This document shows positions 12,728 through 19,359 of a DNA stretch of 20,792 bases, piece by piece. The stretch is from a virus, in the IMG/VR virus record IMGVR_UViG_3300022602_000398, positions 4,114-24,905 of that record. One strand, 5' to 3'. Below the pieces are notes generated by a model. It was not told the DNA's origin, did no database searches, and saw only the letters and a program-made list of their open reading frames with translations. Both the position numbers and the translations under genes were made by a program. Position 1 is the first letter of the stretch, and the number at the start of each line of letters is the position of its first letter.

Positions 12728-13516
12728 ATGGCTACAAATACTAAAAACGTAATCGTAGGTGCAGCATCTCTTTTTACTAGCGTTGGAAACAGCTCTAACA
12801 ATGCAGGTCGCCCTACAACAAAAACAACGGACATCGCAACACTTTTGCCAACAAGCACATCAGCAAGATCTGGTCTTCTAGCATCTTCTGAATACCGTGA
12901 AGTTGGATACACAAACACAGGTCTTGAGATTTCATATGAACCAACATATGGTGAAGTTATGGTTGATCAGCTTTTGGACGCAGCTCGTATTTTCAAGCAA
13001 ACACTTAAAGTTATGCTTAAGACTGAGCTTACAGAAGCAACACTTGAGAACCTACAGTTCTCATGGGGTCAGATGGATTCCTATTATGTTCCAAACGATT
13101 CAGACAACGCTGTTGTTGACGTTCCAGCATTGTTAAACAATGATACTAACTTTAACAGCACAACAGACACACCTGCAGCATCATTGGCTATCGCAGCTGG
13201 TGCTCTTGGTGATGCACCAGTAGAGCGTGTTATCATCGCAGTTGGTCAAGCTCCAGCACAAATTGGTACATCAGTATCAGTTTCTAATGCAGGAAATGGT
13301 ACAACTGGAACAGGTGTAGTAACATCTGTTTCTCGTCAGAAAGAGCGTGTTTATATTGCTCGTCGTGTTGTTTCAATTGATACAACAATGCATGCACTTA
13401 AGCGTGATGCAGCAACTGTGTTCCCAGTGAACTTCCGTTGCTTGCCTGACTCAGATCTAGCTTATGCTGGTTCGGAGTACGGTGTTGTTATTGACCGTGT
13501 ATATGGTACATACTAA
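12728..13516 (+). CDS. Major tail (tube) protein
   Basis: This 262-residue protein lies between the tail terminator and the chaperone genes, the usual place of the tail-tube subunit. It begins MATNTKNVIVGAASLFTS, and a central TNTGLEISYEPTYGEVMVDQLLDAARIFKQTLKVMLKTEL is the typical tube pattern of a strand, loop and helix. A Gly/Thr/Ser-rich stretch (about residues 175-200, VSNAGNGTTGTGVVTS) may be a surface insertion. The end, YVIDRVYGTY-like, is again strand-rich. It would polymerise around the tape measure. Codon choice (CGT/CGC Arg, many C-ending codons) matches the capsid gene and differs from neighbours, as does the shared ribosome site, pointing to high output. A strong hairpin follows. 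Confidence 0.85.
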   Translation: MATNTKNVIVGAASLFTSVGNSSNNAGRPTTKTTDIATLLPTSTSARSGLLASSEYREVGYTNTGLEISYEPTYGEVMVDQLLDAARIFKQTLKVMLKTELTEATLENLQFSWGQMDSYYVPNDSDNAVVDVPALLNNDTNFNSTTDTPAASLAIAAGALGDAPVERVIIAVGQAPAQIGTSVSVSNAGNGTTGTGVVTSVSRQKERVYIARRVVSIDTTMHALKRDAATVFPVNFRCLPDSDLAYAGSEYGVVIDRVYGTY

Positions 13517-13551: not shown

Positions 13552-13580
13552 CAGACCCCCACCGAAAGGCGGGGGTTCTG
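13552..13580 (+). terminator. Terminator after major tail protein
   Basis: CAGACCCCC and GGGGGTTCTG pair around an inner CC-GAAA-GG GNRA loop with one A-C mismatch and one bulged T. It is followed by AGTTTGTTTA, a modest T-rich tail, and then by promoter P7. Confidence 0.75.
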
Positions 13581-13583
13581 AGT

Positions 13584-13611
13584 TTGTTTATACTTATTTT
13601 ATTGGTATAAT
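13584..13611 (+). promoter_or_regulatory. Promoter P7 (TTGTTT, 16 bp, TATAAT with extended TG)
   Basis: Perfect TATAAT at 13606-13611 with TG at 13603-13604; TTTGTTT at 13583-13589 is placed as in P6. A start near 13618 gives a leader of about 19 bases with AAAGGAG at 13623-13629 before TTG 13637. Confidence 0.75.
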
Positions 13612-13636
13612 TTAACTAACACAAAGGAGCTATAAA

Positions 13637-13972
13637 TTGGCAACAACAGTATATGATATTGTAGATATTGAATTAAGTGATGGAACATCTATCACACTAA
13701 AACCTCTGCCTATTAAGCAGTTAAGAAAATTCATGGAAGTAATTAATACCATGCAAGGAACAGACGATGCAAATCCAGACGCTGCTATGGACGTATTTAT
13801 TGAAGCAGCTATGATATGCCTAGAAAACATTAGACCAGATTTGTCGCAAGATAAAGATAAGTTTGAGGACGTTATTGAAGTACCTACAATGATGAAAATT
13901 CTTGAAGTAGTCGGAGGTCTGAAGCTAACAGACCCAAACCTTCTGGGAGCAGCTCTAGTTGGGACGAACTAG
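13637..13972 (+). CDS. Tail assembly chaperone, short product (gpG-like)
   Basis: The 111-residue protein starts at TTG 13637, 7 bases after AAAGGAG. Sequence DIELSDGTSITLKPLPIKQLRKFMEVI near the start is typical of the short chaperone before a tape measure gene in actinobacterial siphophages. The zero-frame stop is TAG at 13970-13972, but a minority of ribosomes is expected to slip before it into the -1 frame and make a longer product (13637-14250). These chaperones bind the tape measure and guide tube assembly and are not usually in the finished virion. The gene is first in the P7 transcript, directly before the tape measure. Confidence 0.85.
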   Translation: MATTVYDIVDIELSDGTSITLKPLPIKQLRKFMEVINTMQGTDDANPDAAMDVFIEAAMICLENIRPDLSQDKDKFEDVIEVPTMMKILEVVGGLKLTDPNLLGAALVGTN

Positions 13973-14250
13973 ATCTTCGCTCCCTAGAGTCTGAAGTTTT
14001 TCTTCTAGGTCATTGGAAAAATTTTGACGAGTTAGAGTCAAATCTTTCCCTTGAAGAGTTAACAGCAGTGCTGGACGCTTCAAGAAAAAAGGATTATGAA
14101 GATAAAAAATTTGCTGCATCACTTCAGGGTGTTGATCTTGAGGAGCAGAATAAAGAACCAGAAGATGTTTCTGTTCTTAATTCTACAAAGATTGCAGCAG
14201 AAGAAGGTTTTGGCCCAGGCGAAGGTCTAGGATTTATGACTCAAGAATAA
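13637..14250 (+). CDS. Tail assembly chaperone, -1 frameshift product (gpGT-like)
   Basis: Reading joins 13637-13939 to 13939-14250 by a -1 slip on C CCA AAC at 13933-13939, giving about 204 residues. Past the slip the product continues PSGSSSSWDELDLRSLESEV, FLLGHW, then an acidic helical region (LEELTAVLDASRKKDYEDKKF) and a tail ending GLGFMTQE. The -1 frame has no start codon of its own near the overlap that would make a sensible independent gene (the first ATG is at 14068), and the frame is open from 13906 to 14247. The WDELDLRSLESE motif just after the slip is typical of the T part of such chaperones. Its stop is 21 bases before the tape measure start. The shift direction is well supported by sequence; efficiency is unknown. 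Confidence 0.85.
13933..13984 (+). promoter_or_regulatory. Programmed -1 frameshift signal: slippery heptamer and stimulatory stems
   Basis: CCCAAAC (13933-13939) fits X XXY YYZ in the zero frame (gac CCA AAC). Five bases later an outer stem GGGAGC (13945-13950) / GCTCCC (13979-13984) encloses an inner perfect 7-bp stem TCTAGTT (13954-13960) / AACTAGA (13967-13973). The zero-frame TAG lies inside the inner stem. Confidence 0.85.
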
Positions 14251-14271
14251 AATGTGGGAGGTGCAAACTAA

Positions 14272-17200
14272 TTGGCTAATATAGAATTAAATATAGTTGC
14301 ACTAGGCGACTTTTCAGCTGTAAATGCTCAAATAAAAGCATTACAAGCACAAGTTGTTGCATTAAATTCAAGCCTTGGAATAGGTTCCATATCTCCACAA
14401 CTATCAAATAGTTTAAAGTCTGCAACAAATGATTTTAGCAATGTTTTGACTGCAAGTAATGCATTCACAAAGCAAACCGTTCAATTAACTTCTGAAACAA
14501 CAAAATTTGGACAAGCACTTGAAAGTGGCAAATTAAGTTTAGGCCAATACTATCAAATTGTTACAGGAAAATCTGGAGCAGCAACAAATTCTGTAAAACA
14601 ATTGGCATTAGAGCAAACCAAATTACAAAATTCTGTAATAATGGCGGACCCTACAAAACAGGGTTTTTATTCTGTATTTACTCCAACTACAATTGATGCT
14701 GCTGCAAATGCTACAAAAATTGCTGCAAATGAAGCAAATATTTATGCATTGGCAGTTCAAAAGGGTTCACAATCTTTAATTAATTTTGGTAAAAATACAC
14801 AATGGGCTGGTCGTCAATTAACTGTTGGTCTTGGAGTACCAATGGTTATATTTGGTAGTCAAGCAGTTAAAGCTTTTGAAGCTACCAATACAGCTTTAAC
14901 ACAACTTCAGAAAGTATATGGAGAAGGACTTACTCCTCCGAGCCAAAATGATGTTAATAAAATTTCTCAAGATGTTTTGAATCTAGGTAGAAGTCTAGCA
15001 CAAACCACGGGTATATCTCAAGAATTTACAGTTCAAGTAGCATCATCATTTGCTGCTATGGGCAAAATGGGTACACAGCTTACTACAGCAACAGAACAAA
15101 CAGTAAGACTTGCAAAGCTTGGAAATCTTGATCAACAAACTGCAACTAATGCTGTTATTGCTCTTCAAAATGTTTACAAGTTAAATACAAATCAACTAAG
15201 TGATGCTGTTAACTATTTTGCTTCTATTCAGAAGCAAACATCTCTTTCAATGAATGATTTAGTTTCTTCAGAATCAAGAGTTGGTCCAATTATTGATCAA
15301 TTGGGTGGAAGCTACAGAGATACAGCTGTTATGATTCTTGCTATGAAAGAAGCTGGCGTTCCAGCAGCACAATCTGCAAACGCATTAAAATCTGCTTTTG
15401 CATCTATTATTGCTCCAACAAAAGCAGCCACAACAGAGTTTGCACAATTTGGAATTAATTTAAGTGCAATTAAAAATGCGGGTAGTCCAGTTCAAATGAT
15501 TGAACAACTTCAAGCGGGACTTAAAAACTTAAGCCCACTTGTAAGAGAACAATTAATTGAAAAGTTATTTGGTAAATATCAATTCTCAAGAATTTCTGCA
15601 CTTTTAGAAAATTTTAATAAAGTCGGTTCTCAAACTGCAAATGCTATTAAAGTTGCGGGTGCTACATCTTCACAATTATCAGATCTTGCAAATCAAGAAA
15701 TGAAACAAGCAACATCTTCTCCATCAGCACAATGGCAAATTGCTCTTAATACATTTAAAGCAGATTTGTATCCAGTGGGTCAAATGATTATGAAGATTGG
15801 TGTAGATGTACTTAAATTTGCTAATGGAGTTGCTAAAGCTTTTGGTGGTTTGCCAGGACCAGTAAAATTAGTATTAGGAGTATTAGCAGGATTTGTTGCA
15901 ATATCTGGACCTATTATCATGTTGACTGGTTTGCTTGCAAACTTTGCGGGTAACGTGTTAAAGGGTGTATTTAATTTAAAACAGCTAGTGACTGGCGGGA
16001 AAACACTAGGGCAGCTATTAACACCAGAACTCGTTGCAGCACAAAATGCATCCGATTTGTTTAGTAAAGGCATTATGGGAGATGCTGATGCAATCAAACT
16101 TCTTAATGAACAAATTGTAATTCTTACAGATAATTTAAATAATCTTGTTGAAAAAATGGGAGCTGGTGCAGGATTACCAGAAATTACTGATAACTTAAAA
16201 ACAAATGTGGGTGCAGTATTAACTACAGAATCTACAATTGCTGAGCAATTAGCATTACCAGGATTTTCAAAAGGTGGCTTAGTTCCAGGTACTGGTGATT
16301 CAGATTCAGTGCCAGCAATGCTTACTCCAGGTGAATATGTTATTCCAAAAGATGATACAAGAAACTTGTTTACACAACTTGCTGGTAAAGAGAAATATGG
16401 AAAATTTGGTAAATCTAATTTTACTTTTGCACAACAATATAGAGCAAATGTTGCACACGAAGACTTTGGAATTGGTAGCATAGACTCTAAAGATATAGGT
16501 CAAGTTTCACATGCCTATGCACCACAAATTGCATCAGCAGCAGGCGTTAGCAAGAGTGCAATGAATAAAGAAATAATAGCTTGGCAACAAAAAAATAAAG
16601 ATTTATTAGCAAAAGCACAAGAACAACTTAAATCTGGCGTAGATGCAAATACTGCTTATGCACAGGCTTCAAAGAAATTTGCTTCTGATATGGAAACAGC
16701 AAATGGACCAGTGTCTAAGTTTTCTGCAAAAGCAAAAGAAATGTTCCCACAACTTTCAGCTGATTTGTCAGAAACACAATCTTATGTAAAAGAAAATAAT
16801 TTAAATCTTATGAAGTCCGCAGATGTTGCAAGATTAACTTCTGCATTGCCTAATAATATAGCTGGACAAATGATGTCAACTCCATCTTCTGATTTCCAGG
16901 ACTGGGCAAAAATAAGAAATGCTGCAACAATAATGTCTCCAGGACAAGATTATAATCTTACAGGAATTCCTAATGTCATAGGTGGTGGCGGTAATCTTGG
17001 AACAAGTCAAGGTCACGTAAGTAAAACGCTTTTGCAAGAACAAACAACAGGAATAATGAATGAAATAAGAAGTGTTGGTTTGCAAGCAGAAGCATCAGGA
17101 GTACAAATTCCCGAAGATTTTGCTAGAGGTGTATTAAATGGAGTAATAAGTGCTTCTCCACAAACAAGAAAAGCTGCACTAAAAATGCTTTCTGATTTTA

Positions 17201-19359
17201 AAGATACATATGGAATTCAAAGTCCTTCAGAAGTATTTAGCAATGAAGTAGGAAAGCCAATTGTTCAAGGAGTTCAAAAAGGCATACAAGATGCATTACC
17301 AGGACTTGAAGATTTTATTACAACATCAATGACTGATGTAGTATCAACGGCATCAGGATCAGATATTATTAATGCTTGGGCAACATCTGGACAAGAAATG
17401 TCTACTGCAATGGCAAGAGGAATTACTGAAAATTCAGGAGAAGTAATAGCAGCTGCAGATACGGTTGCTGAAGAAGCTTCAACATCAATGCTTACAAAAG
17501 TAAAAGGAATGATGGGCGGAGGAGTAGGAACAGCTGGAGGAATTGGTATAGCAATGATGCTACCAATGTTAACTGGAATGTTACCTAAAAATATTGGCGG
17601 TACTAACATATCTGGACTTACTAGCACAGCAACAACTGCAGCAAGTGTAGGAATAGGTGCTTCAATGATGGGCGGTACTATTGGTGCCCTAGCAATGCCA
17701 ATCGCAGGTGTTGTTGGAGCATTAGGTCTATTAAAAATTGGTATTGATAGTGTTAGTGCTGCAAATAGAGAAGCAAAAAATGTAATTGAAGAAACTTATG
17801 GAAAAAATTCTATAACTACATCATATTTTGGTCTTTCATCAAGTAATCTTAGTCAATTTGATTTTTCAGGATTAATTGCTGGTGTAAAAGAATCAACATC
17901 ATCAATTCAAGAAAATAAGGCTGCAGTAGATGCACTTACATCTGCATATCAAAATGCAACAGATCAAATGACTAAAGATTATATAAATCAAGTTAAAAAT
18001 TCAAATTATGGTGATCTTCAAAACATGATGAAGACAAGATATAATACAGATCTTGCTCAAGGAATGACATCAAAACAAAGTATTCAGGATTTGACATCAA
18101 TTATGAAAGCTGGCGGAAAAGACCAGTTAACAATAGGTGGAGTTCTTTCTTCTGTAGGTGCAAAGGCAACAGATAATGCAGCCCTCGGATTTGCTAATGC
18201 TTTAAAAAGTGCTTTAGCACCATATGAACAAAAAACTGAAGCAATTAAAAAAGGTGGTTATGGAGCAACATTAGTTCCAAAAGGTGGACAACCACAATCA
18301 ATGCAAGCTCAAACTCTTAAAGAAAATGCAATTAATGATATTGCAACAGAGCTTTTAAATGTAGCACAAACTACTCCAGCAAATCTTAAAACTATTGTTG
18401 ATGGTTTAAAATCTGCTGGAAATGAAACAGGTTTAGCACTTACAAATTCAGAAGCTGTTTTTAAATCATTAAGAAGTCAAGTTGCATCATCTAATCCAGA
18501 TCTAGCAACTTGGATGGATCAAATGCACAAAGCAAATATGCCAACCGTAGAAATGGCAAAAGCTATAGCATTATTAAATGCTGGAATTGTGCAGACTCCA
18601 GAAGCACTAGGAAATGCTACAGATAGTGTAACAACTTGGATTAACCATATTGAAGAAGCTTTTAACAATTTAAAAACTCAAAGCACTGGAGGAGGAGGAA
18701 CTAATCCAATCCCTACTCCACTTCCTACAAGTACAGGGGTATTTACAGGAACTACTGCAGAAAAGCAACTTGAAAAAACATTACAAGGTAACTTAGATGC
18801 ACAAAATGCACAACTTAAAATTGCAAAAGATGCATTAACTGTTCAAAATAAAATTTCTCAAGAAGCAAAGCAGCAACTTCAATATCAACAACAAATTACT
18901 GGCTTGCAGAATGATATGAAAACTGCTATGATAAGTGGTAACTATTTGCAAGCAGCAAGTTTAAAGCAACAAATAGCTGGTGCAGCTGTTGATTTTAATG
19001 CTACAAGTGTCCAACAAAAAATGCAAGATCAAGTTGATAATTTGCAAGCAAATGCTGATCAAATTAATCAAGCATTACAAGATCTAAAAGATGCTATTGG
19101 CAATGGAACAACAACTATTGATAAGACAATATTGGCTGCAAAAAATATTCCTTTGCTTAATGCACAAAGTATTGTGGCGGGAGTTGGAGTCGGTGCTCCT
19201 ACAGTAACAACTATTATTAATATTAATGGGTCAGCAGATCAAAAAGCTCTTGATGCTATAACTCATGCAGCAAATAAAGGCTATAGCTCGGCAGCTGGAA
19301 CAAAGGTTAACCCCCAAGCAACAAAAGTTTCTAATGTGAGGACGTTGAAAAAGAAATGA
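14272..19359 (+). CDS. Tape measure protein
   Basis: This 1695-residue protein starts at TTG 14272 with a strong GGGAGGTG 8 bases upstream. Residues about 220-400 (LGRSLAQTTGISQEFTVQVA, SVRxxDL-like SESRVGPIIDQLGG, AMKEAGVPAAQSANALKSA) match the PhageMin_Tail/TP901 tape measure domain. Apolar segments lie near 526-560, 1092-1105 and 1123-1158 and would help membrane passage at DNA delivery. GFSKGGLVPGTG...SVPAMLTPGEYVIP at 664 and GIQSPSEVFSNEVGKPIVQG near 981 are further tape-measure hallmarks. Residues about 1500-1620 form a coiled coil. It sets tail length by spanning the tube; by the common rule of about 0.15 nm per residue, a tail near 250 nm is possible if the whole chain is extended. 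Its stop overlaps the next start by four bases. Confidence 0.95.
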   Translation: MANIELNIVALGDFSAVNAQIKALQAQVVALNSSLGIGSISPQLSNSLKSATNDFSNVLTASNAFTKQTVQLTSETTKFGQALESGKLSLGQYYQIVTGKSGAATNSVKQLALEQTKLQNSVIMADPTKQGFYSVFTPTTIDAAANATKIAANEANIYALAVQKGSQSLINFGKNTQWAGRQLTVGLGVPMVIFGSQAVKAFEATNTALTQLQKVYGEGLTPPSQNDVNKISQDVLNLGRSLAQTTGISQEFTVQVASSFAAMGKMGTQLTTATEQTVRLAKLGNLDQQTATNAVIALQNVYKLNTNQLSDAVNYFASIQKQTSLSMNDLVSSESRVGPIIDQLGGSYRDTAVMILAMKEAGVPAAQSANALKSAFASIIAPTKAATTEFAQFGINLSAIKNAGSPVQMIEQLQAGLKNLSPLVREQLIEKLFGKYQFSRISALLENFNKVGSQTANAIKVAGATSSQLSDLANQEMKQATSSPSAQWQIALNTFKADLYPVGQMIMKIGVDVLKFANGVAKAFGGLPGPVKLVLGVLAGFVAISGPIIMLTGLLANFAGNVLKGVFNLKQLVTGGKTLGQLLTPELVAAQNASDLFSKGIMGDADAIKLLNEQIVILTDNLNNLVEKMGAGAGLPEITDNLKTNVGAVLTTESTIAEQLALPGFSKGGLVPGTGDSDSVPAMLTPGEYVIPKDDTRNLFTQLAGKEKYGKFGKSNFTFAQQYRANVAHEDFGIGSIDSKDIGQVSHAYAPQIASAAGVSKSAMNKEIIAWQQKNKDLLAKAQEQLKSGVDANTAYAQASKKFASDMETANGPVSKFSAKAKEMFPQLSADLSETQSYVKENNLNLMKSADVARLTSALPNNIAGQMMSTPSSDFQDWAKIRNAATIMSPGQDYNLTGIPNVIGGGGNLGTSQGHVSKTLLQEQTTGIMNEIRSVGLQAEASGVQIPEDFARGVLNGVISASPQTRKAALKMLSDFKDTYGIQSPSEVFSNEVGKPIVQGVQKGIQDALPGLEDFITTSMTDVVSTASGSDIINAWATSGQEMSTAMARGITENSGEVIAAADTVAEEASTSMLTKVKGMMGGGVGTAGGIGIAMMLPMLTGMLPKNIGGTNISGLTSTATTAASVGIGASMMGGTIGALAMPIAGVVGALGLLKIGIDSVSAANREAKNVIEETYGKNSITTSYFGLSSSNLSQFDFSGLIAGVKESTSSIQENKAAVDALTSAYQNATDQMTKDYINQVKNSNYGDLQNMMKTRYNTDLAQGMTSKQSIQDLTSIMKAGGKDQLTIGGVLSSVGAKATDNAALGFANALKSALAPYEQKTEAIKKGGYGATLVPKGGQPQSMQAQTLKENAINDIATELLNVAQTTPANLKTIVDGLKSAGNETGLALTNSEAVFKSLRSQVASSNPDLATWMDQMHKANMPTVEMAKAIALLNAGIVQTPEALGNATDSVTTWINHIEEAFNNLKTQSTGGGGTNPIPTPLPTSTGVFTGTTAEKQLEKTLQGNLDAQNAQLKIAKDALTVQNKISQEAKQQLQYQQQITGLQNDMKTAMISGNYLQAASLKQQIAGAAVDFNATSVQQKMQDQVDNLQANADQINQALQDLKDAIGNGTTTIDKTILAAKNIPLLNAQSIVAGVGVGAPTVTTIININGSADQKALDAITHAANKGYSSAAGTKVNPQATKVSNVRTLKKK

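Follow-up and report, generated by a model that had tools for sequence, protein, structure and literature searches.

A predicted −1 frameshift signal with a covarying nested hairpin in a phage tail assembly chaperone gene

We analysed a 20,792-nucleotide stretch of viral DNA (the window), which is part of a 24,905-base IMG/VR virus record. Within the window, a short tail assembly chaperone gene is flanked by the genes for the major tail protein (upstream) and the tape measure protein (downstream). Its 3′ end overlaps a second open frame. We refer to the two overlapping frames as G and T. The genes and signals at the locus are as follows.

12728..13516, + strand: major tail protein gene, the upstream neighbour (Ig-domain phrog_2175; its counterparts in relatives are labelled major tail protein)
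13623..13629, + strand: Shine-Dalgarno-like AAAGGAG, 5′ of the chaperone TTG start (from the sequence)
13637..13972, + strand: G, the zero-frame, gpG-like tail assembly chaperone gene of 111 codons (111 amino acids), with a TTG start and a TAG stop (direct reading)
13933..13939, + strand: slippery heptamer C_CCA_AAC in X_XXY_YYZ register, near the end of the G gene
13933..14250, + strand: T, the gpT-like part in the −1 frame, 105 amino acids followed by TAA, predicted to be expressed only as a fusion
14272..19359, + strand: tape measure protein gene, the downstream neighbour (PF10145, E 8.4e-26; TIGR01760, E 3.4e-28)

The order of major tail protein, overlapping G and T frames and tape measure is observed directly in both the window and its relatives. 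TTG starts both the chaperone (13637) and the tape measure gene (14272), and the chaperone TTG is retained in 92% of 64 relatives. The AT-rich gap between the major tail protein gene and G holds a GC-rich inverted repeat at 13552-13580 (CAGACCCCCACCGAAAGGCGGGGGTTCTG), which a terminator scan did not call as a terminator. At the left end of the window, an open frame (2-1711) encodes a repetitive protein with many tandem repeats like TSTDGITWTLRTMP...SVTYGNGVFAAV.

Reading the frames directly places CCCAAAC in register, as a preliminary description of this DNA had stated, with CCA (13934) and AAC (13937) as the in-frame codons at the site. On translation, slipping into the −1 frame at the heptamer produces a G-T fusion of 204 amino acids that includes WDELDLRSLESE, in keeping with the earlier claim that joining the frames restores a chaperone segment. 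The predicted fusion peptide across the shift site reads ...LTDPNPSGSSSSWDELDLR.

We found that both the site and the frame relation are conserved well beyond the window. Among the nearest 64 distinct sequences (window included), the heptamer is CCCAAAC in 63 and CCCAAAT in one, always in register, and the zero-frame TAG lies exactly 37 nt from the heptamer start in all of them. Relative to G, T occupies the −1 frame in 452 of 452 loci, a count that includes near-copies and reduces to 149 distinct loci. In 138 of these 149, reaching as far as the Loccivirinae Streptomyces phages, CCCAAAC, CCCAAAT or CCCAAAA stands in register. A stop codon in the −1 frame directly abuts the 5′ end of the heptamer (offset 0) in 30 of the 138 distinct loci; there the heptamer is where the −1 frame first opens, and the shift is confined to the heptamer and the nucleotides that follow it as far as the zero-frame stop. 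One relative (L375) has lost CCCAAA (GAT CCA AAT TTG) and carries an in-register A_AAT_TTG one codon downstream, with a −1 frame that opens right after a stop just 5′ of A_AAT_TTG. Our search of an E. coli motif study (PMC4066793) turned up no measurement of CCCAAAC.

Immediately 3′ of the heptamer, the RNA is predicted to fold into two stems, one inside the other, made up of the following elements.

13940..13944, + strand: spacer CTTCT, 5 nt (direct reading)
13945..13950, + strand: outer stem 5′ arm GGGAGC (folding, covariation)
13955..13960, + strand: inner stem 5′ arm CTAGTT (folding, covariation)
13961..13966, + strand: apical loop GGGACG (sequence and folding)
13967..13972, + strand: inner stem 3′ arm AACTAG, its last triplet being the zero-frame stop TAG (13970-13972)
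13979..13984, + strand: outer stem 3′ arm GCTCCC, with frozen synonymous sites (folding, covariation)

The spacer agrees with the earlier reading of a structure that starts 5 bases after the heptamer. That reading also had two stacked stems around the stop codon: there are indeed two stems, and TAG does lie in the inner 3′ arm, but 'nested' is more exact than 'stacked' because an internal loop of about 3-4 nt on one side and 5-6 nt on the other parts the outer from the inner stem. The outer arms are complementary at 6 of 6 positions, and the inner stem can gain a further pair, T13954-A13973. RNAfold, applied to 13940-14000 as the preliminary description had suggested for this region, returned the nested structure at −22.9 kcal/mol with a z of −2.06 against dinucleotide shuffles, a value that is only moderate when taken alone. 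An Rfam scan of 13600-14300 gave no match up to E 1. A structure shortly 3′ of a slippery heptamer is common, though not obligatory, in G/GT cassettes.

Comparison with relatives made the case for the structure much clearer. A tree of G plus T separates three groups, namely the window's clade (g1), its sister clade (g2) and the Streptomyces phages, and a supported branch sets each of them apart. When each sequence was folded alone, the nested two-stem fold was the minimum free energy structure in all 63 distinct g1 sequences and in 24 of the 26 from g2, the other two not giving the two stems together. In the g1 and g2 folds, about 5 nt separate the heptamer from the outer stem, within which the inner stem lies. 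We compared these folds with a null in which only the codons 3′ of the zero-frame stop were replaced by synonymous ones; g1 proved far more stable than this null, with a mean z of −2.74 and a median P of 0.01 (63 distinct sequences), and the effect was weaker in g2 (mean z −1.03, median P 0.14).

The arms of g2 are built of other bases (outer AGCGGC/GCCGCT, inner GTTCTG/CAGAAC). Despite one extra codon in g2, the inner arms stand at identical distances from the heptamer in the two clades, so that the RNA register was kept while the protein register moved. An ungapped, heptamer-anchored comparison of g1 and g2 found 97.7% of inner-stem cells paired and both sides changed in 4 of 6 pairs. Slid versions of the inner stem were 17-49% paired, and dealt-out 3′ arms reached a mean of 73.1% and a maximum of 82.8%, the latter control keeping relatedness and much of the inner-stem signal being a single g1/g2 split. 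For the outer stem, the sequences' own arms averaged −11.6 kcal/mol compared with −9.4 kcal/mol for permuted arms, and 0 of 200 permutations did as well. One subclade of g1 (L187, L203/L206, L254, L440, L451) shows various rebuilt versions of the outer stem, examples being GGGGCGGC/GCCGCTCT and GGGGCAGC/GCTGCCCT. Covariation of both stems follows from the way g2 rebuilds the nested fold from different bases at the same distances; the alignment check proposed in the preliminary description therefore came out in favour of the structure, through g1 versus g2 and through the outer-arm permutation. Together, the synonymous null and the compensatory changes in both stems place the g1 structure clearly beyond chance. 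Dozens of distinct sequences carry natural compensatory changes that support the two-stem stimulator. This particular nested stem pair was not found in the more distant Stanwilliamsviridae (Loccivirinae and Boydwoodruffvirinae), and no compensatory pair emerged when 12 Loccivirinae-type sequences were run through RNAalifold.

The place of the stop codon within the fold varies more than the fold itself. A conserved Leu-Asp is encoded in the −1 frame as CTA-GAY, and the Asp forces the overlapping zero-frame triplet to be TAG; where Streptomyces phages have Leu-Asn instead, the zero-frame stop is TAA or TGA. The outer stem generally encloses the zero-frame stop in g1 and g2. In g2, however, the stop falls immediately downstream of the inner stem but within the outer one, and in L370 it lies 6 nt further on. 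A stop inside the inner stem is specific to g1 and is probably, for the most part, a by-product of dual coding. A more elaborate possibility is that these uncultivated phages maintain, through covariation, a separate cis-acting RNA family as stimulator, not in Rfam, in which the buried stop is itself put to use: termination would require opening of the inner stem, and the arrangement would tune slippage and termination, hence the G:GT ratio. We regard this as unlikely.

Another way to read the region accepts the frameshift and changes its stimulator, replacing the outer stem with an H-type pseudoknot between GGGA (13961-13964) and TCCC (13981-13984). All four pairs can form in 55 of 63 g1 sequences, although four pairs are too few for a test. 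The pseudoknot would also have to compete with the outer stem, which is rebuilt with other bases in L187, L203, L440, L451 and g2, and in g2, where the loop is GCTGGT, a fixed partner was not seen. We therefore consider the pseudoknot improbable and retain the nested hairpin as the candidate stimulator.

It is less probable still, and we give it very little weight, that conservation of the region reflects dual coding only, the stems being a by-product and the heptamer alone driving slippage. The inner arms would fit such an account, for they hardly vary in g1, and AACTAG is almost fully dictated by the peptides (Asn-stop in frame 0, Glu-Leu-Asp in frame −1). The outer 3′ arm does not fit, because it lies past the stop in single-coding sequence and yet its synonymous sites are frozen: past the overlap in g1, the Ser codon at 13981 is TCC in 64 of 64 sequences and the Arg codon at 13978 is CGC in 42 of 42, and neighbouring Ser, Leu and Asp codons vary. 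Where the outer 3′ arm does change, the changes go along with changes in the 5′ arm, and in g2 the stems stay at their distances from the heptamer even with the inserted codon, which shifts the protein register.

Separate production of T, by internal initiation or by reinitiation after the G stop and without frameshifting, is hardly credible even though many Stanwilliamsviridae records annotate T as an ORF of its own: the T frame of the window has no ATG, GTG or TTG upstream of GTG 14068, which lies inside the protein and 3′ of its most conserved segment, leaving the conserved WDELDLRSLESEVFLLGHW segment unreachable by internal initiation from any of these usual start codons, and the position of the first start codon differs widely between relatives. 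A sequencing error or pseudogene was rejected, the arrangement being kept in 149 distinct loci, and transcriptional slippage is not favoured at a site with no run longer than three. We also rejected a conserved upstream Shine-Dalgarno-like stimulator; the GGAGG that precedes the heptamer by about 14-15 nt in the window arises from a Gly-Gly pair, for which relatives make free use of different codons, and it is thus not conserved.

The reading that we hold with high confidence is that one gene gives rise to two tail assembly chaperones by predicted −1 slippage at C_CCA_AAC, stimulated by the nested hairpin. A −1 frameshift in a tail chaperone gene was the central proposal of the preliminary description, and it is supported by synteny, annotated homologues, an invariant site, an open −1 frame, the lack of a T start and covariation. 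That ribosomes slip here, how often they do so and what each product does we infer as follows. The majority of ribosomes would reach the TAG at 13970 and make the 111-amino-acid G, and a minority, stalled by the nested hairpin 5 nt downstream of the heptamer, would slip back one base and make the 204-amino-acid G-T fusion. In this tandem slip, the P-site tRNA would move from CCA to CCC and the A-site tRNA from AAC to AAA. By analogy with lambda, surplus G may coat the tape measure protein and the scarcer fusion may recruit the major tail protein.

Homology searches tied both halves of the predicted fusion to phage proteins. G matches phrog_10504 (E 1.6e-27) and T matches phrog_10474 (E 1.4e-17), PHROGs that are both listed as of unknown function and can now be linked as the zero-frame and −1-frame halves of one predicted tail assembly chaperone fusion. 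Pfam and NCBIfam searches gave nothing significant for G or T, and a PDB sequence search with profiles of both proteins likewise gave nothing significant. By tblastn, G was found in 127 phage records and T in 130, with 127 of each being Streptomyces phages; relatives sought in GTDB genome contigs were not found. The 20 homologue records that we opened were mostly Stanwilliamsviridae, and the pair was often annotated as tail assembly chaperone, an annotation that is the depositors' own; it is through sequence homology to these annotated proteins that we place the pair in the chaperone family. Four records (Yaboi, Stigma, Emma1919 and TunaTartare) enter the long product as a joined CDS, with lengths consistent with reading from the G start through a −1 join.

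AlphaFold2 models of the two proteins were of middling confidence (pLDDT 70 for G and 69 for T). The likeness of G to the HK97 tail assembly chaperone (PDB 2ob9) is one of fold only and is weak (Z 4.7 over 84 residues, rmsd 5.6, 6% sequence identity). In the structure search with G, 2ob9 ranked second to an unknown-function protein of a Vibrio PICI-like element (Z 4.8), and the rows below it were at Z 3.0 or less. Against viral models, the G model matched several proteins that bear the name tail assembly chaperone, with an E of 6.5e-6 for one of them.

The Stanwilliamsviridae Streptomyces phages (among them Moab, Circinus, Annadreamy, Yaboi and Stigma) encode homologous G (~42-49% identity) and T (~52-64%), and they share with the window the gene order, the −1 relation and a site at the same Asp-Pro-Asn/Glu codons. 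We found no paper on frameshifting in Stanwilliamsviridae in a literature search. The Loccivirinae differ in having CCCAAAT, with a stop 43 nt on that is TAG, TAA or TGA. The Boydwoodruffvirinae keep the same two frames with neither CCCAAAC nor the stem pair, the combination that the preliminary description had named as evidence against the signal; they have, however, a variant site of their own, CCCGGAA, at the homologous place, which suggests divergence of the signal rather than an absence of frameshifting. CCCGGAA, which is not of the form X_XXY_YYZ, occurs in Boydwoodruffvirinae and close relatives (L282, L283, L286, L287, L288, L292, L293, L294, L297 and L371) and in the alignment stands opposite CCCAAAT, the canonical site in the sister subfamily. 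In PRFect, CCCGGAA is the commonest form of a hypothetical 'threetwotwo' motif explained by G:U pairing (PMC10274946); the Boydwoodruffvirinae site is the same, whereas the window has the canonical 'threethree' form. The variant sites among relatives (CCCAAAT, CCCGGAA and one A_AAT_TTG) amount to a natural experiment on how a phage holds its frameshift ratio while the site and the RNA fold change.

Programmed −1 frameshifting in tailed phages is known from lambda G/GT (PMC5009743). The window resembles lambda gpG/gpGT in placing the gene between the major tail protein and the tape measure, in specifying a short G and a long G-T, and in the predicted −1 slip near the end of G (PMC5009743). It differs in its protein families (phrog_10504 and phrog_10474, with no Pfam match), in its CCCAAAC heptamer and in its covarying two-stem hairpin. 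Like other G/GT cassettes, it combines the gene order with an in-register heptamer in the overlap, a downstream structure and a T frame without its own start. We conclude that the signal is a well-supported new example of −1 frameshifting of the lambda G/GT type, a kind that is itself textbook rather than new.
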